A stretch of DNA of 64,000 nucleotides from an uncultured Anaerolineales bacterium. GTDB taxonomy: Bacteria > Chloroflexota > Anaerolineae > Anaerolineales > Villigracilaceae. The notes below the pieces were generated by a model. The model searched no databases and was not told the origin of the DNA. It was given only the letters and a program-made list of their open reading frames with translations. Shown in pieces: positions 1 to 16,501 of the stretch; position 1 is the stretch's first letter; each line of letters starts with the position of its first letter. The translations under genes were made by a program, and so were the position numbers. The stretch spans positions 18,375 through 82,374 of the forward strand of contig CALFXA010000051.1 of the NCBI GenBank assembly GCA_937928015.1, written 5' to 3'.

Positions 1-2
1 AC

Positions 3-398
3 GACGAGGTGGCGGCAGGCTTTATCTATCACGCCCTGCGTTTCTCGGCCCGCTACTCCAACAGCTACATCTGGCCTGCGCGGCATCTCACTAGCGGAAC
101 GGCAGGCACACTGACCTCCACGCCGCCCTTCGGAGCCCGGTTCCGCCTGAAGGCCTCGTACGATATTTCAGGTTTCCCGCCTGAGATGCAGGTCGTCTTA
201 CAGGCCATGAAGACCTATGGCATCATCCTGGCCGACACTCAAACCAGCGACACGCCGCGTTGGACAGTGCAGGGCACGCCCGACTTACGCTGGGACCAGC
301 TCATCGTCCACACTATGGACGTGTTGACGGGCAATGACTTCGAGGCGGTGGACGAATCCAGCCTGATGCTCGACGTCAACTCGGGCCGCACGCGCTAG
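3..398 (+). CDS. C-terminal part of an SLH-type surface protein (5' end outside window)
   Basis: Open at the left edge; the frame runs from base 3 to a TAG stop at 396-398. The 132 visible residues align almost without gaps with the C-terminus of the next gene: both carry YIWPARHLTSGTAG, GARFRLKASYDISGF, MKTYGIILAD and FEAVDESSLM. It is therefore a tandem paralog of that protein and probably also carried N-terminal SLH repeats, which are not visible here. The conserved C-terminal module has no function that I recognise; extracellular location is inferred from the neighbour's signal peptide and SLH domains. Confidence 0.85.
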   Translation, partial: DEVAAGFIYHALRFSARYSNSYIWPARHLTSGTAGTLTSTPPFGARFRLKASYDISGFPPEMQVVLQAMKTYGIILADTQTSDTPRWTVQGTPDLRWDQLIVHTMDVLTGNDFEAVDESSLMLDVNSGRTR

Positions 399-403
399 GC
401 GAA

Positions 404-474
404 TGTCATTGCGAGGGCTGGGAGTCAGGCAGCGTTCTTTGCACAACAAAACCCAGCCCGAAACAATCTCCAGA
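404..474 (-). repeat. Degenerate dispersed intergenic repeat, copy 1
   Basis: Read on the minus strand it contains GAGATTGTTTCGGGCTGG, then CAAAGAACGC and CCTCGCAATGACATT. Related, more degenerate copies occur at 10931-10970 and 50456-50498, all between genes. It fills the gap between the two SLH paralogs. No coding capacity or terminal target-site duplication is apparent. Confidence 0.5.
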
Positions 475-501
475 TTTTCCAGTTTTTTTCGGGAGGCATC
501 C

Positions 502-2067
502 ATGTTCAGGAAAATTCTCTTGCTCGGGTGGATGACCACCCTGGTTTTCGCCTGTTTCAGTCCCGCGCAGGCCGCTCCCGTCTCGCGGCCAAGCGCCGCG
601 CCCAATCTCTTTCTCGATGTATCGCAGCGGCATTGGGCCGCACCCTGGATCAACCAGCTCTATAACGAAGGCGTGACGGGCGGCTGCTCTACCAACCCAC
701 TCAAGTATTGCCCCGATGCCACCGTCAACCGCGCACAGATGGCCGTCTTCCTCGGGCGTGTGATCCACGGCAGCGCCCACACTCCTCCCACTCCTGCAAA
801 TGTCTTCGGCGACGTGCCCACCATGTACTGGGCCAATGCCTGGATCAATCTACTCTACACCGACGGCGTGACGGGCGGCTGCTCCACCAACCCGTTATTG
901 TTCTGCCCCGAGGCGGGAGTCAGCCGCGCGCAGATGGCCGTCTTCCTGTTGCGCGCCACACATGGGAAAGATTACACGCCGCCTGCTTCGGGGGATGTCT
1001 TCGCCGACGTTCCTGCCAGCCACTGGGCCCACGATTGGGTCAATCAGTTCTACACCGAGGGCTTCACGGGCGGATGCGGAACCGCTCCCCTGCGCTATTG
1101 CCCCGACACATTGCTCACTCGCGCGCAAATGGCCGTCTTCCTGCTGCGCGCCATCCACGGACCGACCTACTCTCCGCCCGCCATCGACCTGATCGGCCCG
1201 ACCATCGGCGGCTGTCCCATCTATCCGCTTGACAACATCTGGAATACCCCCGTGGACGGGCTGCCCGTCCATACCCGCTCGGCACAATGGATCAACTCCA
1301 TTGGCGCGGGCACAGGCTTCCACATGGACTTCGGCTCGGGCACCTGGGATGGCGGCAAGATCGGCATCCCATATAATGTGGTCTCGGGTGCGACGGTCAC
1401 GAAATATTCCCCTGTCTTCCTCTATGCGGGCGAGTCCGACGCGGGGCCCTATCCGCTCCCAGCCACTCCGCTACAAGAGTATGGCTCCGATCATCACATT
1501 CTCACCGTCGATACGGACAATTGTCATTTGTATGAACTGTACGCCGCAAGTTTTGTGAGCGGAAATTGGCACGCAGGTTCGGGCGCTATTTGGGACCTGA
1601 ACTCGAACGCCTTGCGCCCCAACGGCTGGACCTCCGCCGATGCAGCGGGCCTGCCCATTTTGCCTGGCTTGGTCCGTTATGATGAGATCGTGGACGGCGT
1701 CATCAACCATGCCCTGCGCTTCACCGCCAATTCCACCAACAGTTACATCTGGCCCGCGCGGCATCTCACCAGCGGCACGGCAGGCGTATTGACCTCCACG
1801 CCGCCAATGGGAGCGCGTTTCCGATTGAAGGCCTCCTACGACATTTCGGGGTTCGCGCCCGAGATGCAGATCATCCTGCAGGCCATGAAGACCTACGGCA
1901 TCATCCTGGCGGACAACGGCTCGGACTGGTACGTCAGCGGCGCGCCTGATGAACGCTGGGACAACGACATGCTGCACACCCTCGACGTGCTGACAGGCGC
2001 GGACTTCGAGGCCGTGGATGAATCCAGCCTGATGGTGGATTCCGACTCAGGGCAGGTCCATCCGTAA
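502..2067 (+). CDS. SLH-domain surface protein
   Basis: 521 residues from ATG 502, which follows GGGAGG at 491-496; the longer frame to 403 is rejected because it would bury the signal peptide. Residues 1-25 form a signal peptide (basic MFRK, hydrophobic stretch, AQA cleavage region). Three SLH repeats follow at about residues 36-90, 94-150 and 154-210, each with a HWAxxWIN-like helix, a VTGGC turn and the RAQMAVFL signature. SLH domains usually anchor proteins to secondary cell-wall polymer or the S-layer. Paired cysteines (GGC...YCP) occur in every repeat. The remaining ~290 residues are an unrecognised extracellular module shared with the upstream paralog. The stop overlaps the next start by one base. 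Confidence 0.85.
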   Translation: MFRKILLLGWMTTLVFACFSPAQAAPVSRPSAAPNLFLDVSQRHWAAPWINQLYNEGVTGGCSTNPLKYCPDATVNRAQMAVFLGRVIHGSAHTPPTPANVFGDVPTMYWANAWINLLYTDGVTGGCSTNPLLFCPEAGVSRAQMAVFLLRATHGKDYTPPASGDVFADVPASHWAHDWVNQFYTEGFTGGCGTAPLRYCPDTLLTRAQMAVFLLRAIHGPTYSPPAIDLIGPTIGGCPIYPLDNIWNTPVDGLPVHTRSAQWINSIGAGTGFHMDFGSGTWDGGKIGIPYNVVSGATVTKYSPVFLYAGESDAGPYPLPATPLQEYGSDHHILTVDTDNCHLYELYAASFVSGNWHAGSGAIWDLNSNALRPNGWTSADAAGLPILPGLVRYDEIVDGVINHALRFTANSTNSYIWPARHLTSGTAGVLTSTPPMGARFRLKASYDISGFAPEMQIILQAMKTYGIILADNGSDWYVSGAPDERWDNDMLHTLDVLTGADFEAVDESSLMVDSDSGQVHP

Positions 2068-2666
2068 TGGGGATGCTGATCGCGCTCGTCGGGCCGAGTG
2101 GCGTCGGCAAGACCACACTCTTGAATGCCCTCAATGCTGAGGGCATTTTTGCGGTCGGCCTTGAGAGCCACGCCGAGCGCCCCTTTCAGGCGTTGTTCAA
2201 GGAAGACGCGCGCTACGCCCTGGCCAATCAGCTCGATTATCTGATCTACCGCGCCGAACAGGAACGGGAACTGCGCGCCGATCCACGGCCCGCGCTGACC
2301 GACGGCGGCCTGGACATGGACTTTTACGGTTTCACGCGACTCTTCCACGCGAACGGCTGGCTGACCGACCCCGAACTGGATCTGTGCCGCCGTTTCCATG
2401 TGCTGACCCGCAGCCTGCTCCCGCCTCCCGATTTGATCGTGGCCCTGAGCGCCTCACCCGAAGCCATCCGCGCACGATTGGCCGCTCGAAACCGAATCAA
2501 CATCGCGTCCGAGAAAGATGCCGAGGCGTTGGAGCGTTTCGTCGCGGAGTGGCTGGCCTCGGTCTCAGCCGAAAAGGTTCTGCGGCTCGACGTCACAGAC
2601 GAGGATCCAGGCTATTCCCGCAGCGTGAGCCTCCTTCAAGTAAAATTGGCGGATATTAAGACCTGA
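2067..2666 (+). CDS. P-loop deoxynucleoside kinase-like protein
   Basis: 199 residues. A Walker A motif GPSGVGKTTL sits at residues 9-18. A helix with YLIYRAEQ and later LSASPEAIRARLAARNR resemble the nucleoside-binding and LID regions of the deoxynucleoside kinase/thymidylate kinase superfamily, which phosphorylate (deoxy)nucleosides in the cytoplasm. The exact substrate cannot be told from sequence. The start ATG overlaps the TAA of the SLH gene (TAATG), so translation is probably coupled to a gene with no obvious functional relation. A second possible start is ATG 2073. A general P-loop NTPase of other function remains possible. Confidence 0.7.
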   Translation: MGMLIALVGPSGVGKTTLLNALNAEGIFAVGLESHAERPFQALFKEDARYALANQLDYLIYRAEQERELRADPRPALTDGGLDMDFYGFTRLFHANGWLTDPELDLCRRFHVLTRSLLPPPDLIVALSASPEAIRARLAARNRINIASEKDAEALERFVAEWLASVSAEKVLRLDVTDEDPGYSRSVSLLQVKLADIKT

Positions 2667-2692
2667 TAGGTTTTCGAAACCTGTCAGGTCTT
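2658..2692 (+). terminator. Long hairpin at the end of the kinase gene
   Basis: Two 16-base arms, 2658-2673 and 2677-2692, pair with a single G-T wobble around a TCG loop. The left arm includes the kinase stop codon. There is no long T-run after it, so it may be a weak terminator or a repetitive palindrome. It also contains the TTG that begins the longest P450 frame, arguing against that start. Confidence 0.55.
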
Positions 2693-2714
2693 GAATCCAA
2701 CTTTAGAGGAAGCC

Positions 2715-3944
2715 ATGCCCCTACCTTCGCATCACCTTGACCTGAACCGCCCCGACTTTATCGCCGACCCCTATGCGGACCTCGCCCGCCTGCGCGAGGA
2801 AGCCCCCATCTTCTACGACGAAACTTGGAACAAGGTCTTCTTCACACGGCACGCCGACATCTCGGCGCTGCTGCGCGACAAGCGCCTGGGCCGCTCGATC
2901 CTGCACATCCTCTCGCGCGATGAGCTGGGCTGGCCGCCGCCGGACCCGCGCCTGAGGGAGTTCCAGCGCTTCCAGGATAACGTCTTCATGGACTGGGAGC
3001 CGCCCGCGCACACGCGCCTGCGCTTGCTGGTCTCGAAGGTCTTCACACCCAAACGCGTGGAAAGCCTGCGCGGCAAATTGGAGGCCACCGTCCACCAATT
3101 GATCGACGCGGTCGAAGCGGACGGCGGCTGCGACTTCGTGCGCGACATCGCCGAGCCGCTGCCCGTGGCGATGATCGCCGACCTGCTGGGCGTCCCCGAG
3201 GCGGACCGCCATCATCTGCGCCCGTGGTCGGCGGCCATCGTCAAGATGTACGAGTTAGGCTACACCGACGAACAGGTCGAGGAAGCCAACCGCGCCGCCA
3301 GTGAATTCATGGAATATATCGGCGGATTGGCGGCTGAGCGCCGCCTCCACCCGCAGGATGACTTAATCAGCGGATTGGTGCAGGTCGAGGAGGCGGGTCA
3401 GACCTTGAGCGAGGACGAGTTGCGCGCCACCTGCATCTTCCTGCTCAACGCGGGGCACGAGGCCACCGTCAACGGCTCGGCGCTGGGCCTGCGGGCGCTG
3501 CTGGGGCATCCCGAGCAGTTGGCCGCGCTGAAGGAGTCCGTGGCAGGCGGGGACGCGCCCTTGCTCAAGACGGGCGTGGATGAGATGCTGCGCTACGACA
3601 CGCCCTTGCCAATGTTCGAGCGTTATGTGTTGGAAGACCTGGAGATCGGCGGGGTCCGCCTCGAACGCGGCATGGAGGTGGCCTTGCTGTACATCTCGGG
3701 CAACCGCGACTCGCTGCGCTTCGAGCGCGCCGACCAGTTCGACCTGACCCGCCGCGACAATCCGCTGCTGACCTTCGGGCTGGGCACGCATTACTGTCTG
3801 GGCGCGCCGCTGGCCCGCCTGGAGATGCAGGTGCTGTTCGGAACCCTGCTGCGGCGTCTGCCAAACGTCCACCGGGCGGGAGAGGCCGAGTTCGCGCGCG
3901 GTTTCGTCATCCGTGGGCTGACATCCCTGCCAATCGGGTTTTAA
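2715..3944 (+). CDS. Cytochrome P450
   Basis: 409 residues from ATG 2715, preceded by AGAGGA at 2705-2710. The I-helix proton-relay motif NAGHEAT lies near residue 245, the K-helix ExxR is E290-R293, and the heme-binding loop FGLGTHYCLG contains the proximal ligand Cys361. It is a soluble bacterial class P450 of normal length with no membrane anchor. These enzymes hydroxylate small molecules using O2 and electrons from a ferredoxin or flavodoxin; no such partner is encoded nearby, and the substrate cannot be predicted. The proximal EANRAASEF and CLGAPLAR regions resemble CYP107/CYP109-like bacterial P450s. Confidence 0.95.
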   Translation: MPLPSHHLDLNRPDFIADPYADLARLREEAPIFYDETWNKVFFTRHADISALLRDKRLGRSILHILSRDELGWPPPDPRLREFQRFQDNVFMDWEPPAHTRLRLLVSKVFTPKRVESLRGKLEATVHQLIDAVEADGGCDFVRDIAEPLPVAMIADLLGVPEADRHHLRPWSAAIVKMYELGYTDEQVEEANRAASEFMEYIGGLAAERRLHPQDDLISGLVQVEEAGQTLSEDELRATCIFLLNAGHEATVNGSALGLRALLGHPEQLAALKESVAGGDAPLLKTGVDEMLRYDTPLPMFERYVLEDLEIGGVRLERGMEVALLYISGNRDSLRFERADQFDLTRRDNPLLTFGLGTHYCLGAPLARLEMQVLFGTLLRRLPNVHRAGEAEFARGFVIRGLTSLPIGF

Positions 3945-4013
3945 GCTTCTCTTGTGACCCCATCCCAAACCAGATATACTCACCCCACTTCATCGCCAAA
4001 AGAGGAGAGTATC

Positions 4014-4457
4014 ATGACAAACGATTTCTATCGGTCGAGCGCCGTCTTCGGTGCGGGGCTGGGGGCCTGGATGGGTGCCCTGCTGGGCGCGGCGGCGGGC
4101 GCCATCACCGTCACCTGGAATGGGGCATTGATCGGCACGGGCGTGGGTCTGGCGCTCGGGGTTTTGACGGGGGCGCTGACGGGGCTGACCACCGCCAAAA
4201 CGGCGGGAACCACAGGCGGGGTCAGCATCGGGGCCTATACGGGCATGGGGCTGGGCGCGGTGCTGGGCGCAATCCTGGGTGCGGCGGTTCCCGATGCCTG
4301 GCGGATGGGCGTCAACACCCAACACACGCCTGTGCTCGACGCGCTGACCCAGGGCCGTTTCGAGACGGCCGTGCTGATCTGCTTCGCCCTGGCGATCCTC
4401 GGGACGGCGGTCGGCGCCTGGGTGAGCGGCAGGAATTTCATCCCGCGCAAGGTCTGA
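4014..4457 (+). CDS. Glycine-rich small membrane protein
   Basis: 147 residues from ATG 4014 with AGAGGAG at 4001-4007. At least three hydrophobic segments (about residues 8-30, 33-58 and 66-90) are packed with G, A and GxxxG-type spacing, similar to glycine-zipper membrane proteins; a fourth segment (~120-142) precedes a basic tail. No catalytic motif is visible and I do not recognise a named family. It is the last typical high-GC gene before the AT-rich cassette island. Confidence 0.7.
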   Translation: MTNDFYRSSAVFGAGLGAWMGALLGAAAGAITVTWNGALIGTGVGLALGVLTGALTGLTTAKTAGTTGGVSIGAYTGMGLGAVLGAILGAAVPDAWRMGVNTQHTPVLDALTQGRFETAVLICFALAILGTAVGAWVSGRNFIPRKV

Positions 4458-4558
4458 GGCTTTGGGCAAAAAGGGGGGTGACGGCCAGTTCGCTCTATGG
4501 ATTTGGGAGATTAGACGGCGGGATATCCACTCGTTGGACTTTTGTGCATTTCCATTTG

Positions 4559-4587
4559 TTGTCCCGAATTGGCATTGATTGTATAAT
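4559..4587 (+). promoter_or_regulatory. Sigma-70-type promoter facing the cassette array (Pc-like)
   Basis: TTGTCC at 4559-4564 and a perfect TATAAT at 4582-4587 are separated by 17 bases. The predicted transcript starts near 4594, crosses the 26-bp palindrome and the core site at 4636, and runs into the array. Position and direction match the cassette promoter of integrons. No other such promoter was seen ahead of the cassette genes. Confidence 0.65.
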
Positions 4588-4606
4588 CAAAAGCGTCGTA
4601 CAAAGG

Positions 4607-4632
4607 GGTTTATACAGCATGCTGTATAAACC
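4607..4632. promoter_or_regulatory. Perfect 26-bp palindrome between promoter and first cassette
   Basis: Bases 4607-4619 are the exact reverse complement of 4620-4632, centred on GCATGC. It would form a 13-bp hairpin in the leader RNA or serve as an operator for a dimeric repressor. It lies about 13 bases after the predicted transcription start and 3 bases before the core recombination site. Confidence 0.6.
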
Positions 4633-4635
4633 ATA

Positions 4636-4642
4636 GTTGGGC
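4636..4642 (+). other. Core recombination site GTTGGGC at the left edge of the cassette array
   Basis: Matches the integron core consensus GTTRRRY and marks the first base of the first cassette. The ten bases to its left lack the TAAcGCAAaCC box found before the same core at the three attC sites, so this may be an attI-type boundary or a worn array edge. The 11 bases from 4636 are nearly the reverse complement of 5284-5294 (10 of 11). Confidence 0.55.
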
Positions 4643-4657
4643 CGCCACAGGATAGTC

Positions 4658-5275
4658 ATGAGACATTTTTTGCAGAAAATTTTCGGATGGTTGAAGCCAC
4701 AGTATCATGAGTTAGTAACTTATCAGTCAACGATTGCTTGCATTGTTTTACTGCTTGCCTACCCAGAACTGCGTCTTACTTATAAGCAAATCATTCACGA
4801 GAAGGTCATCGGTGATTGGATTGTCCTTATGAGTGTACTTGCGGTCTTGGGCATGTTTTTCTCAATCTGGCACGTTTTTACTGCAAGAAAAAAGTTGCTT
4901 TGGGAAAAGCAATGGATGGGCGCTTTTGCAATGAGTGCAAATGGTCTAGCAGGAATTGCTGCTGGTGTCGAGATTTTCCCAACACGATGGTCTTTCATGG
5001 CTTTGTTTCCAATTTGGAATATCCTAGTTGGCATGATTTTGTTGTATCAAATGGGTTTTGCAGAAAATGTGGTCACAGATGAAAACGCGTCATTATTGGA
5101 GGTAGGCATTGCAACTGTTTCATTACTTGTGATATTTGCCATCGCAAAGTATGGTTTTCATTTAACGTGGGCCGCAACTTTTTCTGTCTGTATGGTTTAT
5201 TCATCAATAATCACATTTGTTACATCTTGGTTTACCAATCAGTTTGGCTGGTATTCGGTTAGCAAGTCACAGTAA
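4658..5275 (+). CDS. Cassette 1: hypothetical polytopic membrane protein
   Basis: 205 residues from ATG 4658, which has only a weak AGGAT upstream; a TTG within the core site at 4637 is in frame but unlikely. Five to six hydrophobic helices (about 26-40, 53-76, 88-110, 112-135, 146-166, 170-195) follow a short basic amphipathic N-terminus. No conserved motif or family was recognised. Codon use is AT-rich, unlike the upstream glycine-rich and P450 genes. It is the first gene after the Pc-like promoter and ends eight bases before the attC region starts, typical of a cassette gene. Confidence 0.65.
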   Translation: MRHFLQKIFGWLKPQYHELVTYQSTIACIVLLLAYPELRLTYKQIIHEKVIGDWIVLMSVLAVLGMFFSIWHVFTARKKLLWEKQWMGAFAMSANGLAGIAAGVEIFPTRWSFMALFPIWNILVGMILLYQMGFAENVVTDENASLLEVGIATVSLLVIFAIAKYGFHLTWAATFSVCMVYSSIITFVTSWFTNQFGWYSVSKSQ

Positions 5276-5287
5276 TGACAAAAGGCG

Positions 5288-5418
5288 GTCCAACAAAGCG
5301 TGCAGCGGACGGCGGGGAGTCTCCCACCAAAATGGCAGATTTCTACACTTTGAATTTTTCCGCTTTCAGGCTTTTTTCCACTCTCGCCCGCGTCCGCCGC
5401 TAACGCAAACCGTTAGCC
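5288..5418 (+). repeat. attC-like recombination site 1
   Basis: R'' box GTCCAAC (5288-5294) is followed by AAAGCGTGCA. At the other end TAACGCAAACC (5401-5411) precedes the R' core GTTAGCC (5412-5418), which departs from GTTRRRY at one position. Inner arms GCGGACG and CGTCCGC pair imperfectly, giving a ~130-base imperfect hairpin of attC type. Confidence 0.7.
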
Positions 5419-5443
5419 CGCAAAGCAACACAAACCTCTCAAA

Positions 5444-6613
5444 ATGAAAATGCCCTTATTTAGATATATTATTGCACTAATATTGCTCATCATCCTTATG
5501 ATTGGGGTTCTAATGTTTCCAATCCCTATTCAACCTAACATTGGTTCTAGTGATTTCCGCCCATATTGGAGTTCCAGTTTTTTACTCAGAAACGGGCAAG
5601 ATTTTAGCAATTTATCTAATATGGATTCTATTGAAAGGTCGCAAACAAATTGGCGCGAATCATATACGATGTCTGCTTGGTTTTCACCCACTGGAAATTT
5701 GATTCTTTTACCTTATACATTTTTGCCATTCGCACACGCTGTTTATTACTGGTTTATAACCAATATATTAGTTGTTTTTTTAAGCGCAATACTGCTTTGG
5801 CAGCGGATTAAAATTCATATTTGGATTCCGCTTGGCGTTTCTTTGACATACTCAGCAACATTGGTGTCCTTGTATGTAGGACAGGTTAATACATTAGTAG
5901 TGCTAGGCTTATCATTATTTATTTTCTTTAGCGCAAAAAAGCATGATTTTCTTGCAGGTGCTTGCCTAGTCTTATTGACAATAAAACCCCATCTAGTTAT
6001 TTTAACTTTGCCATTATTGATACTCAATACGATTTGGCAAAGAAAACTGAAAATATTTGCAGGATTTATGAGCGCATTGGTTATATGTACGTTAGTTTTG
6101 TGGGGTATATATCCGCGCTGGCTAAATAGTTTTTGGCAGGTAATGACCTCTGGCATGAGCAGTTTTCGAGAAGCGCCTACAATCTCAGGACTTTTAGTTC
6201 ATGCAGGCTACGGATACGGAAAGTGGCTTTGGATAATTGTTTTGTCACTATCTATAATAATTTGGTGGAAATTAAGGAATAAAATTGATCAACGAATTCT
6301 AATAGATACTACTATTCTAATTGGAATGCTTGTTTCTCCCATTGGTTGGAGTTATGACCAAATAGTTTTGCTTATTCCTCTTTTGCACGTTTTTGAATGG
6401 GTGGTTAGTAGCACCTTGACCAAAGGTAATATAATGGTCATTGTTTTTATATTGGTGATTGCTAACTCATTATCTTTTTATCAGCGCACCTTTTCCGTAA
6501 GCGATGTTTGGTTATTTTGGATACCATTAGTTGCTTTAATCGTATATATTTTTTCATGGAAACAAAGACGCATGAAAATTTCAGATGCTGTTTTAGCGAT
6601 AGAAGCGGGCTAA
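5444..6613 (+). CDS. Cassette 2: GT87/DUF2029-like membrane glycosyltransferase
   Basis: 389 residues with about ten to eleven transmembrane helices spread over the whole length. A DFRPYW motif after the first helix, GQVNTLVVLGL near the middle, and TIKPHLVIL resemble the DUF2029/GT87 polyprenol-phosphate-sugar-dependent mannosyltransferases of the membrane; assignment is by motif resemblance only. ATG 5444 has no clear ribosome-binding site and a second ATG lies six bases on. The stop codon TAA (6611-6613) is part of the R'' box GGGCTAAC of the following attC site, so gene and recombination site are directly joined. The gene is strongly AT-rich. Confidence 0.6.
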   Translation: MKMPLFRYIIALILLIILMIGVLMFPIPIQPNIGSSDFRPYWSSSFLLRNGQDFSNLSNMDSIERSQTNWRESYTMSAWFSPTGNLILLPYTFLPFAHAVYYWFITNILVVFLSAILLWQRIKIHIWIPLGVSLTYSATLVSLYVGQVNTLVVLGLSLFIFFSAKKHDFLAGACLVLLTIKPHLVILTLPLLILNTIWQRKLKIFAGFMSALVICTLVLWGIYPRWLNSFWQVMTSGMSSFREAPTISGLLVHAGYGYGKWLWIIVLSLSIIIWWKLRNKIDQRILIDTTILIGMLVSPIGWSYDQIVLLIPLLHVFEWVVSSTLTKGNIMVIVFILVIANSLSFYQRTFSVSDVWLFWIPLVALIVYIFSWKQRRMKISDAVLAIEAG

Positions 6614-6735
6614 CAAGGCGCGCACTGGACGCTGGGAATCTCAGCAATCTCAAGCAGTTTCCTACGCCTTATCATTTTTCTGGCTGGACGGCTTCGCCGT
6701 CCCCGCCCCAGCGCAGGTAATGCAAACCGTTGGGC
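6608..6735 (+). repeat. attC-like recombination site 2
   Basis: R'' GGCTAAC (6608-6614) followed by AAGGCGCGCA; TAATGCAAACC directly before R' GTTGGGC (6729-6735). Inner arms GCTGGG (6651 region) and CCCAGC (6707 region) pair, and a separate short GGACGGC/GCCGTCC hairpin lies inside near 6686-6702. The same box order and spacing are found at sites 1 and 3. Confidence 0.72.
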
Positions 6736-6759
6736 GCACCCCGTATAATAATATTATCT

Positions 6760-7635
6760 ATGAAAGTTGAAATTGAACTATTAAGCCAACGTCTTGATGT
6801 GTCAGAAGATAAAGTCTGGCGTGTTTTTAGTTTGTATTGGGAGGCCACTCAACACGAATCTAACTTATCAGCTTTTGCCTTTAGAGAAAAGAATGTCACT
6901 GACATACGAAAAATTCAAAAATGGAATGGCAATTACGACGGGATAGAACTCGAAATCGAGTTTCATAAGACTGGCGACAAACTTCTTTGGCTCGGGGTAA
7001 CTCGTGTAGGCGGCAGACGTTATGAACACCTTATTGGCTATATCGAAGCTCGGCGTGCATTAATAGGTTCTGACACGCCTGTTGATGTCCAGATTGTTTG
7101 TACTTGGAAGCCTTTCTACCTTTTTTTCAAGGGAATGTCGGAAACTATATTATCCTATTTCACGCGCCAGCCAATAGACCATGCACTTTCAGAAACGCTA
7201 GAATTTAAGTCGCTCGTAGAAAGACAGATGTACAAAGACATTTTTGTTCGTGGACGAGCACAAGAAAATATAGCTCGGGCACTATTACAAACTTTTCTAA
7301 TCCGACGAAGTTATAGAGAAGTACCTGTCAGAGGTGGACAGTCAGACCTCTTGATATTTGATGGGCAGGGACGGTTTTTATATGAAACAAAAATCTTGAA
7401 AGGTCGTGAATATTTCTCGCAAGGTTTACGAGAGATAAATGAGTATATAATTGGAGAAGATAGTGACGGGCAATTAGCAGGTGTATTCTATATTCTCTTT
7501 GACCCTACAAAATCCGTTGCGGCACGCAGATATAGAGGTAGCGATATATCAACTGAAATCATAGGTAAGCGTACTATACACGTTATTATCATCAACATCA
7601 GCCCTCCAAAGCCAAGCAAGAAGAAAAGGGGGTAG
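6760..7635 (+). CDS. Cassette 3: PD-(D/E)XK nuclease-like protein
   Basis: 291 residues from ATG 6760 (the frame runs open back into the core site). The C-terminal half holds a probable PD-(D/E)XK core: E187 (YREVPVRGG), D196 in GGQSDLLIF, and E209-T-K211 in FLYETKIL, spaced as in restriction-endonuclease-fold domains that bind a metal ion and cut DNA. Residues 1-165 form a separate domain rich in aromatic and charged residues with no recognised family. A basic tail SKKKRG ends the protein. It has no methyltransferase partner, so a stand-alone defence or repair nuclease is an inference. Cassette location suggests lateral transfer. Confidence 0.6.
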   Translation: MKVEIELLSQRLDVSEDKVWRVFSLYWEATQHESNLSAFAFREKNVTDIRKIQKWNGNYDGIELEIEFHKTGDKLLWLGVTRVGGRRYEHLIGYIEARRALIGSDTPVDVQIVCTWKPFYLFFKGMSETILSYFTRQPIDHALSETLEFKSLVERQMYKDIFVRGRAQENIARALLQTFLIRRSYREVPVRGGQSDLLIFDGQGRFLYETKILKGREYFSQGLREINEYIIGEDSDGQLAGVFYILFDPTKSVAARRYRGSDISTEIIGKRTIHVIIINISPPKPSKKKRG

Positions 7636-7651
7636 TAATAGCCAGCAGTGC

Positions 7652-7818
7652 GCCCAACAAAGCGTGCAGTCTTGCGCAACAAAAAACGCCCAACAACGCG
7701 TGCACCCGACAGGTGGGATTCGTCCCGCTAAAAAGGAGTTGATTCTATGCTCGAAGGTTTTCCGTCAAATCAGCGTCATCTCATCCCGCCCACCTGCAGG
7801 TAACGCAAGCCGTTGGGC
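7652..7818 (+). repeat. attC-like recombination site 3 with a duplicated left half
   Basis: Two R'' boxes GCCCAAC occur, at 7652-7658 and 7688-7694, each followed by the left-box sequence (AAAGCGTGCA and AACGCGTGCA). Only one right half exists: TAACGCAAGCC then R' GTTGGGC (7812-7818). The second half-site pairs best with it through CAGGTGGG and CCCACCTG, so 7688-7818 is the intact site and 7652-7680 a leftover half of cassette 3's own site. Confidence 0.68.
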
Positions 7819-7833
7819 ATACAAAGGATAACC

Positions 7834-8370
7834 ATGAACTCATTTCCTCCAGACGTGAAAGATGCGATTCACAAATTGTCAGAATTCGCAAACCAGAATG
7901 GGTACGCCGAAGTGACCATTTCTCGTACTGGAAGTGCATCTTTCACCCAACACAGTTACGGAAAGAAAAAAGGAAATATCAGCGCAATAGGCATTCTCGC
8001 GCTCATTACGGCTGGAATATTGTTGATCAGCAGCCTCGTTGTTATTGCAATAGTTTTTTTCAAGCCTCTGCCTGAAATTTATGACCATAGGTGGATATTC
8101 ATTTTATTTGGTTCGTCGGTGCTCTCTGCAATGGTCACAATAGAGCCCGCCGTTGGAAACAAAGAAATACACGGCGCCAATACAATCATAGCAGCCTGCG
8201 CAACCTTCATATTCCTGGGTTTGGCATTGATCTCGACATCTTTTGTTCTATCAACGCTTTTCTGGGGTATGGCTTTTTCCAGTTTTGTGTTTGGACAAGG
8301 CTTTGATACCCTCCAAAAGGGTATGAAACGAATCCAACAGTTTATTCACCCAAAGAATAAAGTTATGTAG
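7834..8370 (+). CDS. Cassette 4: hypothetical membrane protein
   Basis: 178 residues from ATG 7834, 15 bases after the R' core and behind AAAGGAT. A soluble N-terminal ~45 residues ending in a Lys-rich turn (GKKKGN) is followed by about four transmembrane helices (48-70, 80-98, 110-130, 132-150) and a basic C-terminus. No family was recognised. No matching R'' box (GCCCAAC-like) was found downstream, so this is the array's last, open-ended gene. Confidence 0.6.
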   Translation: MNSFPPDVKDAIHKLSEFANQNGYAEVTISRTGSASFTQHSYGKKKGNISAIGILALITAGILLISSLVVIAIVFFKPLPEIYDHRWIFILFGSSVLSAMVTIEPAVGNKEIHGANTIIAACATFIFLGLALISTSFVLSTLFWGMAFSSFVFGQGFDTLQKGMKRIQQFIHPKNKVM

Positions 8371-8425
8371 CATTCGAGCATATAAAATCGGCCATCGGTC
8401 TTAATCAGGACTAAAGGAGAAAAAC

Positions 8426-8806
8426 ATGACAACCATTGCCTATGTAAAGTTCGGCCGAGGTTTTGCTGTTGTTCTTTCAATCCTGGCTTTTGTCTATCCA
8501 GTGGGATTCGCTTATATGATCTTGTCGTGGATGGGTCTCCAGAGTTACGATCCGCTTCTCTGGCCACAAGGTACGTTCCCTGCCTATGCCCTGGTTTTCC
8601 TTCTCGGTTGTGCTGGTTTGTATTGGATATGGAAGCGGAGAAAATTTGGGGTCTATATATTGACAGGAACGTGGTTCTTGACCGCGATTCTCAACCAAAC
8701 GATACGTCCATCTGTGCCAACACCCTATCTCAGCGTTACCCTGGCGTTCATATTGGTGGTTACGTTCTTTCTATTTCTAATCCCAGAATGGAAACACTTG
8801 GATTAG
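8426..8806 (+). CDS. Hypothetical small membrane protein
   Basis: 126 residues from ATG 8426 behind a good AAAGGAG (8413-8419). Four hydrophobic segments (about 12-32, 48-66, 74-90 and 100-119) with a WKRRKFG basic turn between the second and third define a small polytopic membrane protein. I do not recognise a family. Composition is intermediate between the cassette genes and the GC-rich backbone, and it lies between the last cassette gene and the Imm-5-like gene, so whether it belongs to the array is uncertain. Confidence 0.6.
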   Translation: MTTIAYVKFGRGFAVVLSILAFVYPVGFAYMILSWMGLQSYDPLLWPQGTFPAYALVFLLGCAGLYWIWKRRKFGVYILTGTWFLTAILNQTIRPSVPTPYLSVTLAFILVVTFFLFLIPEWKHLD

Positions 8807-8845
8807 CAGCACTAATGGTTTTAAAAAGATCGACTGAGGTGAATG

Positions 8846-9379
8846 ATGGCGCGTGAGGCCAAGTATTTTTCTCTCAACTTGGAATCCCTCAGGTCGCTGG
8901 GGAGTTGGGCTGCGGACTGCGCCGAGAGGGCGCTATCCGTTTACGAGAGTCAGGCGAATGCAGATTACCGCCCTCGCGCTGCCATTGAGGGCATTCGAGT
9001 GTTTGCTGATGGAGGAAAGCGAACCGCCCAGTTGCGGTCCCTCGCCCTAGCAGCGTTTTCCGCTGCCCATGACACGGAGAATCCGTCCGCCGCAGCGGCT
9101 GCCCGCGCCGCAGGCCTGGCGGCATCCAGCGCTTACACACATCCGCTGGTGGATGTGCAACAGACAAAACATATCGTGGGCCCCGCAGCCTATGCCTCGC
9201 TGGCGCTCGAACTAGACCAGGGCGGCGACCATTCCATTGGTGACAACGAAATTAATTGGGCCATAGAGCGTGTCACCCCAGAAGTCCGCGAGATTCTGTT
9301 GCATATGCCTCCTCGTGACGTAGGGAAAACAAGGCTGGAGAATCTAATGTATAAGTTAGATTCCAGTATACGGGGCTGA
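8846..9379 (+). CDS. Imm-5-like (putative immunity protein) domain protein
   Basis: 177 residues; ATG 8846 is preferred over ATG 8843 because GAGGT at 8836-8840 is then five bases away. CAERALSVYE, DYRPRAAIEGIRVFADGG and the Ala-rich helical repeats (AAAAARAAGLAASSAYTH) match the helical putative-immunity family annotated as Imm-5-like. Such proteins are listed as antidotes of polymorphic toxins, but most stand alone in genomes, as here; no toxin gene is adjacent. Soluble, alpha-helical and cytoplasmic by composition. Confidence 0.65.
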   Translation: MAREAKYFSLNLESLRSLGSWAADCAERALSVYESQANADYRPRAAIEGIRVFADGGKRTAQLRSLALAAFSAAHDTENPSAAAAARAAGLAASSAYTHPLVDVQQTKHIVGPAAYASLALELDQGGDHSIGDNEINWAIERVTPEVREILLHMPPRDVGKTRLENLMYKLDSSIRG

Positions 9380-15748: not shown

Positions 15749-16501
15749 ATGCACAATCGAAAGTCCGTCCCCATCCATCTCCTTTCCTGGAGCGCGGTTC
15801 TCCTGCTAATGGCGTGCAGCCTGGCGGGGCAAATTCCCTTCCTCGCAACACCCACCCCGCTCCCCACGCCAACCCCCATCCCCACTGCGACGCCTGTACC
15901 ACATCCACCTGAAATCACAAAACTCGATCTGAAGGAAAAGATCGAGAATGGAGAACAGCTTTTCGACATCCTCATCTCCTTCCGCGACCTGGATGGGGAT
16001 GCCGTTAAGATCCATTACGAGATTCTCAAAAGCACTGCTTCGGGTCTAAACGTGGAAGATGGTTACCTAAACAACACGAAACAATCACAAAAAGCTGGGA
16101 CGACCGCCACGGGCAATTGGGGGTGTGGCAATGACACCTACGATGTCACCCTGGGAATCACAATCATCGACGCCAAGAGACTCGAAAGCGAACAAAAATC
16201 CATCACAATCCCCTGCGATGTATCCCGCGTGATTCCCACCTACTCGCAAGTGGTGGCCGCTTATCCACCAGGGACCGAAACATGCAATTCGGTGGTGGAC
16301 ATCACCGGTATGAATGGAGACAAATTGAACGTCACCATCCACACCCTGAGTATCTACAAAGGCCAGATCTCCATCCGTTGCCCGGGGACAAAGGTTACTC
16401 TGCTAGCGGATGTCACCCTGGACGGCGTCAATTATGAATCGGGAACATTGTTGACGGTGGATGAAAACAACGACTGGATTGTGGTTTCCAGTTGGGATTG
16501 A
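15749..16501 (+). CDS. Lipoprotein with Pro/Thr linker, unknown function
   Basis: 250 residues from ATG 15749 behind GGAGA. The signal peptide ends in a lipobox LLMAC (Cys23), followed by a proline/threonine-rich linker (residues 33-52) typical of Chloroflexota surface lipoproteins. Residues ~55-150 look like an Ig/cadherin-like beta domain (FRDLDGDAVKIHYEI). The C-terminal ~75 residues, with VDITGMNGDKLNV and GTLLTVDENNDWIVV, resemble an SH3-like module. It would sit on the outer face of the cytoplasmic membrane. Substrate or partner unknown. Confidence 0.65.
   Translation: MHNRKSVPIHLLSWSAVLLLMACSLAGQIPFLATPTPLPTPTPIPTATPVPHPPEITKLDLKEKIENGEQLFDILISFRDLDGDAVKIHYEILKSTASGLNVEDGYLNNTKQSQKAGTTATGNWGCGNDTYDVTLGITIIDAKRLESEQKSITIPCDVSRVIPTYSQVVAAYPPGTETCNSVVDITGMNGDKLNVTIHTLSIYKGQISIRCPGTKVTLLADVTLDGVNYESGTLLTVDENNDWIVVSSWD

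Follow-up and report, generated by a model that had tools for sequence, protein, structure and literature searches.

An integron cassette array headed by an attI site and lacking an integrase gene in an uncultured member of the Anaerolineales

The DNA analysed here is a stretch of 64,000 nucleotides (the window) from an uncultured Anaerolineales bacterium of the phylum Chloroflexota, and it holds an integron cassette array and no detectable gene for an integron integrase (IntI). Judging from its sequence the array is headed by an attI site, and the locus is very probably an integron platform from which the integrase gene has been lost. Such a platform would consist of the attI together with a promoter-like sequence (4559-4642), three cassettes of one gene and one attC site each, and a fourth segment that no longer has an attC. 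The window's organism was examined in this stretch only. Among its relatives, PriA has a best-segment identity to the window of 95% in L001 (genome G001, a metagenome-assembled genome of a groundwater Chloroflexi member) and of 86% in L002 (genome G002, a second such genome), and by this measure G001 is the closest relative.

The cassette array and its attI site

Three attC sites lie on the plus strand of the window, at 5288-5418 (attC1; 77.7 bits, E = 8.1e-21), 6608-6735 (attC2; 89.4 bits, E = 2.9e-24) and 7688-7818 (attC3; 95.9 bits, E = 3.8e-26). The scores were obtained with a covariance model of the clade's own attCs, which was used in place of the general model of IntegronFinder and for which arrays of two relatives supplied 17 training attCs and the window none. 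Up to E = 10 the model matched nothing else in the 64 kb, and up to E = 1 it matched nothing in 666,748 bases of 32 loci from outside the Chloroflexota. A first-pass annotation of the window had described a common order of attC boxes at three places and had proposed covariance-model scoring as a test; all three sites score strongly with the clade's own model, and a pattern scan agrees. The strict R''+L'' pattern occurs three times on the plus strand (5288, 7652 and 7688) and the L'+R' pattern likewise (5401, 6718 and 7801), neither of them anywhere else on the two strands of the 64 kb. The left half of attC2, AAGGCGCGCA, falls outside the strict R''+L'' pattern, and the match at 7652 is an extra R''/L'' half-site on the plus strand (7652-7668) in front of attC3, for which a separate partner half was not found. 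The limits proposed earlier for the first two sites thus stand, and the third site is better bounded at 7688-7818 than from 7652 onwards. The close similarity that had been claimed for the three sites holds for their boxes, but the whole sites have a mean identity to one another of only 54%, as against 60-79% within five arrays of relatives.

The sites also have the stem shape that is typical of attC, in which an unpaired spacer separates the R''/R' and L''/L' pairs and the 5' side has additional unpaired bases. The training alignment of 17 attCs shows a common stem, 7 of whose 22 pairs have compensatory changes. When 90 distinct attCs (94 sites from 27 sources) were aligned, 96.2% of the cells were paired versus 84.5% after shuffling, 13 of the 22 pairs had changed on both sides, and slid structures dropped to 28-38% pairing; this larger alignment was fitted to the covariance model and has the 17 training rows among its own. 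The bottom-strand folds of attC1 (z = -2.1) and of the trimmed attC3 (z = -2.0) surpass those of most shuffled sequences. The fold of attC2 (z = -0.2) counts against the integron reading, being no better than that of shuffles or of its own top strand. Its poor folding, and the lack of any match of the sites to Rfam at both thresholds used, are what would be expected if the sites belonged to another family of intergenic hairpin repeats. The R''/R' pattern described below, the covariation and the IntI genes that in relatives adjoin attCs matched by this model contradict such an origin, to which we attach practically no weight. The three sites are attC sites.

Integron integrases cut between the G and the TT of the R' box. 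Because the cut falls there, a cassette is expected to end in an R'' that is complementary to the R' with which it begins, a relation that was scored only for sites with both AAC and GTT in place. The R'' of cassette 2 (GGCTAAC) exactly complements the start of its own cassette (GTTAGCC) and not its own downstream R' (GTTGGGC), and is therefore discriminating. A count of the 22 inner attCs in five arrays gave 8 mismatches with the start of the same cassette versus 28 with the attC's own R', and in the array on contig C28 of G002 the complement is exact in 10 of 10 cases, the attI-proximal one included. The two other cassettes of the window are less favourable to this reading: the R'' of cassette 3 (GCCCAAC) complements its start GTTGGGC but also its own downstream R', which makes it non-discriminating, and the R'' of cassette 1 (GTCCAAC) is one base off the complement of the attI junction GTTGGGC at 4636. 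The window array as a whole shows the R''/R' pattern of recombination at G/TT. Both this complementarity and the covariance model agree with the cassette-array architecture that had been recognised at first pass. That annotation was right about the array, but overlooked the attI at its head.

The attI (4605-4642, plus strand) contains a perfect 26-bp palindrome, GGTTTATACAGCATGCTGTATAAACC, at 4607-4632, which is followed after three bases by GTTGGGC at 4636, with the crossover G/TT at 4636/4637. A palindrome as good was found in 0 of 100 shuffles. More telling are the matches to attIs that adjoin an intI gene: the site is 92% identical over 38 nt to the intI-linked attIs of genomes G147 and G149 (E = 1e-10) and also matches that of G004 (E = 2.8e-7), and it recurs with 37 of 37 identical positions on contig C65 of G059. 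An attI finder placed an attI in 62 of 95 intI-linked regions, the other 33 being excluded. In many linked attIs the best palindrome is no better than in shuffles, and the palindrome was rejected as a general attI feature. LexA-type control of the palindrome was discarded as well: exact copies, the only ones sought, of the version in G001 and G002 (TACCGAACNGTTCGG) were found only at attIs (two places in G001 and one in G002), so that a genome-wide SOS operator is unlikely. A possible fragment of another type of attI precedes the site at 4497-4518 on the plus strand (20 of 22 positions identical to the intI-linked attI of G103, E = 0.001).

Directly upstream of the attI, at 4559-4587 on the plus strand, the promoter-like sequence TTGTCC-17-TATAAT matches the consensus at 10 of 12 positions and is a candidate cassette promoter (Pc), from which the cassettes would be transcribed. 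It is one of the four best promoter-like matches (10/12) between 4400 and 9500, a region with 14 such matches versus a chance mean of 9.7 (sd 3.3), which is not clearly above chance. Stretches of 11-15 nt around the TATAAT were found again upstream of three linked attIs, the individual matches being weak (E = 0.8-2.7).

The attI bears on one further explanation, in which a distant IntI would have inserted the cassettes at an ordinary genomic GTT and no attI was ever involved. This route is among those given in the available text of PMC8618304 for clusters of attC sites lacking an integron integrase (CALINs; the term is used in this sense in the available parts of PMC8618304, PMC9668308 and PMC9024848). 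It is very improbable here, given a structured attI at the start of the array with relatives that adjoin intI genes.

The content of the array is in line with its architecture, the attCs alternating with single AT-rich plus-strand genes as had been noted at first pass (GC 0.405, 0.355 and 0.405 for the three cassette genes versus 0.585 for the window). Cassette 1 (4637-5412, plus strand, with borders set by the attI and attC1) carries an open reading frame (ORF) at 4658-5275 for a hydrophobic protein that has no Pfam match. Cassette 2 (5413-6729, plus strand) encodes a GT87 glycosyltransferase (ORF 5444-6613; PF09594, E = 1.1e-17). Cassette 3 (6730-7812, plus strand) encodes a protein of 291 residues (ORF 6760-7635), again without a Pfam match; 55 proteins were matched at E ≤ 0.001, the query itself included, and any names that they bear are hypothetical only. 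The terminal segment (7813-8370, plus strand; ORF 7834-8370) starts with a cassette-type TTGGGC junction and has no attC match downstream.

The missing integrase and the same locus in sister species

The absence of an IntI-type recombinase from the window, asserted in the first-pass annotation, was borne out over the 64 kb, with a best tblastn match of E = 0.17 and no match to the hidden Markov model. No remnant of intI was found between 4440 and 4700 of the window either. Its own intI would have been lost by deletion, as in a sister species in which the same locus retains pieces of the gene.

The left flank of the array (1-4459) is present on contig C13 of G001 and contig C27 of G002, in both followed by a cassette array, and synteny with G001 extends, with gaps, from the right edge of the array at 8383 to at least 27393. 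In G001 the two flanks are found on two contigs with array sequence at the end of each, and the array is not closed. At the DNA level the window cassettes have no match at E ≤ 1e-3 to the G001 and G002 stretches beyond the attCs, and at the place of the window ORF 7834-8370 the terminal ORF of L001 is a different one. The comparison of gene content and order that had been proposed at first pass came out in favour of the cassette-array reading: G001 keeps the flanking genes and carries other cassettes, in an array that is spread over two contigs and not closed.

At the orthologous locus of G001 the attI is accompanied by remnants of both ends of an intI gene (C-terminal pieces at E = 2e-9 and 1e-6), and 164 nt that comprise the attI and the start of intI are 90% identical to the complete integron of the same genome on contig C15. 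The G002 copy of the locus has an attI but no intI. Both genomes have intI elsewhere, and G001 also has an attI of the window type elsewhere, at C8:493038.

The array of G001 C13 holds a full-length IntI (L116 16077-17774) of 324 residues, with 409 bits to TIGR02249 and a match to PDB entry 2a3v at E = 5e-80. The gene is reversed within a cassette, with a complete attC (15954-16083) on one side and the next R''/L'' on the other, and no attI was seen in front of it. No other of the 88 distinct intI places has an array-oriented attC behind the C-terminus, the places without a detected attC being uninformative in this respect. The G001 contigs L116 (17768-17908) and L120 (1-141) end in the same 141 bases (141/141 identical), which start with the left half of an attC and are probably a repeat that broke the assembly.

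The neighbouring genes define the borders of the locus. On the left, a cytochrome P450 gene (2691-3944, plus strand; PF00067, E = 8e-26; DNA identity 84% with G002 C27 and 91% with G001 C13) is followed by the last shared gene before the array, a small glycine-zipper-like gene (4014-4457, plus strand) with weak Gly-zipper matches below the Pfam cut-off; the alignment with G001 stops at 4459. The right flank that is common with G001 (8426-9379, plus strand) comprises the ORFs 8426-8806 and 8843-9379, with 81.5% and 87.5% DNA identity, respectively. The latter, directly to the right of the array and kept in G001, is an Imm5-like putative immunity gene (PF21805, E = 5e-22).

Platforms and cassettes across the family

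Integron integrases are common in the family of G001. The integron integrase model TIGR02249 scored above its cut-off in 84 of 152 family genomes and in none of 14 controls, and in at least 98 of 396 genomes drawn evenly from the class. The attC model gave matches at E ≤ 1e-6 in at least 119 of the 152 genomes. Taking IntI at E ≤ 1e-60 (86 genomes), at least 71 have both IntI and attC, at least 134 have either, and at least 44 lack IntI but have two attCs or more; since the family genomes are fragmented, the absence of IntI from any of them is weak evidence.

A search with the window attI (query 4556-4645) gave at least 19 places in 14 family genomes at E ≤ 1e-6 with matches that reach the crossover. 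Two of these (G147 C68 and G149 C443) adjoin a TIGR02249 match. The 17 others include G112 C53 (L250), the place on C8 of G001 and the one in G059 that is identical over 37 nt. No piece of IntI was found within 2 kb upstream of 15 of the 17; a weak one (E = 1.6e-4) precedes the attI at G014 C61, and G146 C317 is uninformative with only 368 bases upstream. An array-oriented attC follows in 14 of the 17 cases and was not found downstream at G014 C247, G125 C41 and G105 C125. An earlier query, the attI of G119 C12, gave at least 16 places at E ≤ 3.5e-9, two of them beside an IntI, but favours its own kin because it is itself an attI without intI. Judged on sequence similarity, attI-led arrays without intI recur across the family.

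Sixteen candidate attIs without intI were also inspected individually. Pieces of intI lie upstream in G015_B and G138. The first attC was not located correctly in G103_D, G015_A, G019_C18a, G019_C18b and G002_C2, so that mismatch values are meaningless there; no GTT was located in G019_C18a, that of G019_C18b is doubtful, and G001_C3 has an upstream region of only 1.4 kb. The attI calls at G001 C3, G001 C7 and G002 C2 are based on BLAST matches of 75-81%. Among the intI genes of the family, seven (L189, L190, L202, L203, L205, L206 and L207) are co-oriented with the attCs behind them, an arrangement described for Treponema in the accessible text of PMC3607928 and present in the family alongside the usual divergent type.

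Several platforms can occur in one genome. G015, nearly all of which is on one contig of 3.97 Mb, has at least three attIs and one intact IntI. Its two attIs without intI are identical to the linked attI at 120/120 and 117/120 positions and are preceded by intI pieces, about 30 N-terminal residues at A and broken pieces of the first 120-170 residues at B. G103 has at least five matches to another attI type on a single 3.1-Mb contig, and one IntI. This genome contains cassettes that have moved. Cassette P directly follows the intI-less attI B and recurs 344 kb away in the middle of array A, with 1741 of 1742 aligned positions identical; at its border the identity drops from 60/60 to 14/60 exactly at the G of GTTGGCT, as in an exact G/TT join. 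Homologous recombination would not account for P, as the left border is at an attI in one copy and at an attC in the other. Cassette Q adjoins P in B and is apart from it in A (2136 of 2138 positions identical). The cassettes X and Y adjoin each other in the array linked to intI and are separate in array A (99.7 and 99.8% identical), where their left borders abut a masked copy of an insertion sequence and hence are not fixed. The attIs A and B themselves are alike at only 105 of 115 positions; the cassettes therefore moved long after the platforms had split.

The arrays of G103 also contain a repeated insertion sequence of the IS110/IS116 family (Pfam Transposase_20, E = 2.6e-24), found at L218 10965-12660 and in eight further copies. 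The L218 copy lies inside an attC, which is reminiscent of the IS1111-attC group.

Since the intI-less arrays of this one relative hold near-identical cassettes with exact G/TT borders, we infer that the IntI of G103 moved them in trans. By extension, platforms without intI would still exchange cassettes through an IntI encoded elsewhere, and the window array would be served by a distant IntI in the same manner. The presence of several attI platforms and few integrases in the relatives suggests that one enzyme may serve many arrays. The most far-reaching reading, which falls just short of probable, is that the integron of this family is distributed over the genome, with one or a few intI genes and several attI platforms, most of them without intI and fed in trans by the same IntI, and with an integrase gene that may be carried, as a cassette, into an array with a dead intI (as on C13 of G001). 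The window would be one such platform.

The usual view of CALINs is that of a static relic, in which intI was deleted, the array is no longer acted upon and the differences between species predate the loss. This is plausible for the window, if on balance somewhat improbable. It agrees with the pieces of intI by the attI in G001 C13, G103 B and G015 A and B, with the damaged IntIs of G002, G103 and G145, with the one-base mismatch at cassette 1 and with window attCs that diverge more from each other than those within the arrays of relatives. It is at odds with the case of cassette P in G103, whose copies, one directly at an intI-less attI and the other in a second intI-less array, differ at 1 of 1742 positions, whereas the two attIs agree at 105 of 115. 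In G103, and the point bears on that genome only, the platforms appear to have split long before the cassette moved.

A number of observations weigh against service in trans, or against a simple history of the locus. For the window's own organism the IntI search covers 64 kb only. In G002 about 1 kb with another ORF separates the left flank from the attI, the right flank is on the same contig but at another place, and the attI call is based on palindromes and an exact R''/R' match rather than on similarity to attIs that adjoin intI. Moreover, the same locus has three attI types in three species, with the palindromes TACAGCATGCTGTA (window 4636), CCGAACNGTTCGG (L116 12630) and TTACTACATGTAGTAA (L118 8573), which simple descent from one platform does not explain. 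The integrases themselves are not all intact: that of G002 (L119 7731-8822, at a ten-attC array on contig C28) has an in-frame insertion of about 30 residues, the IntI of G145 is in pieces, and the coding sequence of the sole IntI found in G103 is divided between two reading frames. The frame break in G103 may be real or a sequencing error; it weakens the case for action in trans, as does the fact that this case comes from a single genome. Finally, G019, G106, G111 and G112 carry attI-led arrays and no IntI at E ≤ 1e-60, and some platforms may therefore be dead. As to the position of the G002 insertion, it falls between SFAT and GYDIR, near catalytic residues.

Relation to known integrons and significance

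Chromosomal integrons with a lost intI are known, as the available text of PMC9024848, PMC12444791 and PMC3607928 shows. The window array resembles a CALIN in having two or more attCs less than 4 kb apart and no intI nearby, but differs in being led by an attI and a promoter-like sequence, as a platform minus its enzyme. With the integrons at ilvD of Xanthomonas, in which intI is inactive or missing (PMC12444791), it shares an ancestral chromosomal locus with differing cassettes, a decaying intI and more CALINs elsewhere; the phylum is another one, and the accessible part of that paper makes no mention of multiple attIs in a genome. The remnant of Treponema phagedenis (PMC3607928) has likewise kept attCs and cassettes and lost intI, whereas no attI is reported for it in the text at hand and its authors call it static.

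Integrons or IntIs of Chloroflexota are already in print (PMC2426708 and PMC8618304, as far as their available text goes), and one Anaerolineae metagenome-assembled genome carries sul4, a gene whose module is linked to integron integrases (excerpts of PMC12772301, PMC8618304 and PMC2426708). The first-pass annotation, which called arrays of this kind little described in Anaerolineae, had overlooked this published work on the phylum. Of resident arrays of Anaerolineae, their attC family or their attI the same excerpts give no account. PMC8352920 offers taxon-specific attC models for 11 taxa, and neither Chloroflexi nor Chloroflexota occurs in its main text. No title or abstract in the open-licence literature was found that concerns cassette-encoded integrases, orphan attIs or several platforms with one integrase. 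As Chloroflexota integrons, CALINs and chromosomal integrons with a lost intI are in print, we class the window array with the CALINs, as an attI-led variant of this type of integron array.

Arrays without an integrase are usually counted as degraded integrons, and standard software detects just their attCs. At least 134 of 152 genomes of this family of uncultured Anaerolineales have IntI or attC, and the present analysis provides the family with an attC model and with attI sequences. With an attI at their head, several copies per genome and, in one genome, freshly moved cassettes, arrays without intI would become candidate working docking stations, and the way in which gene-capture capacity is counted would change.

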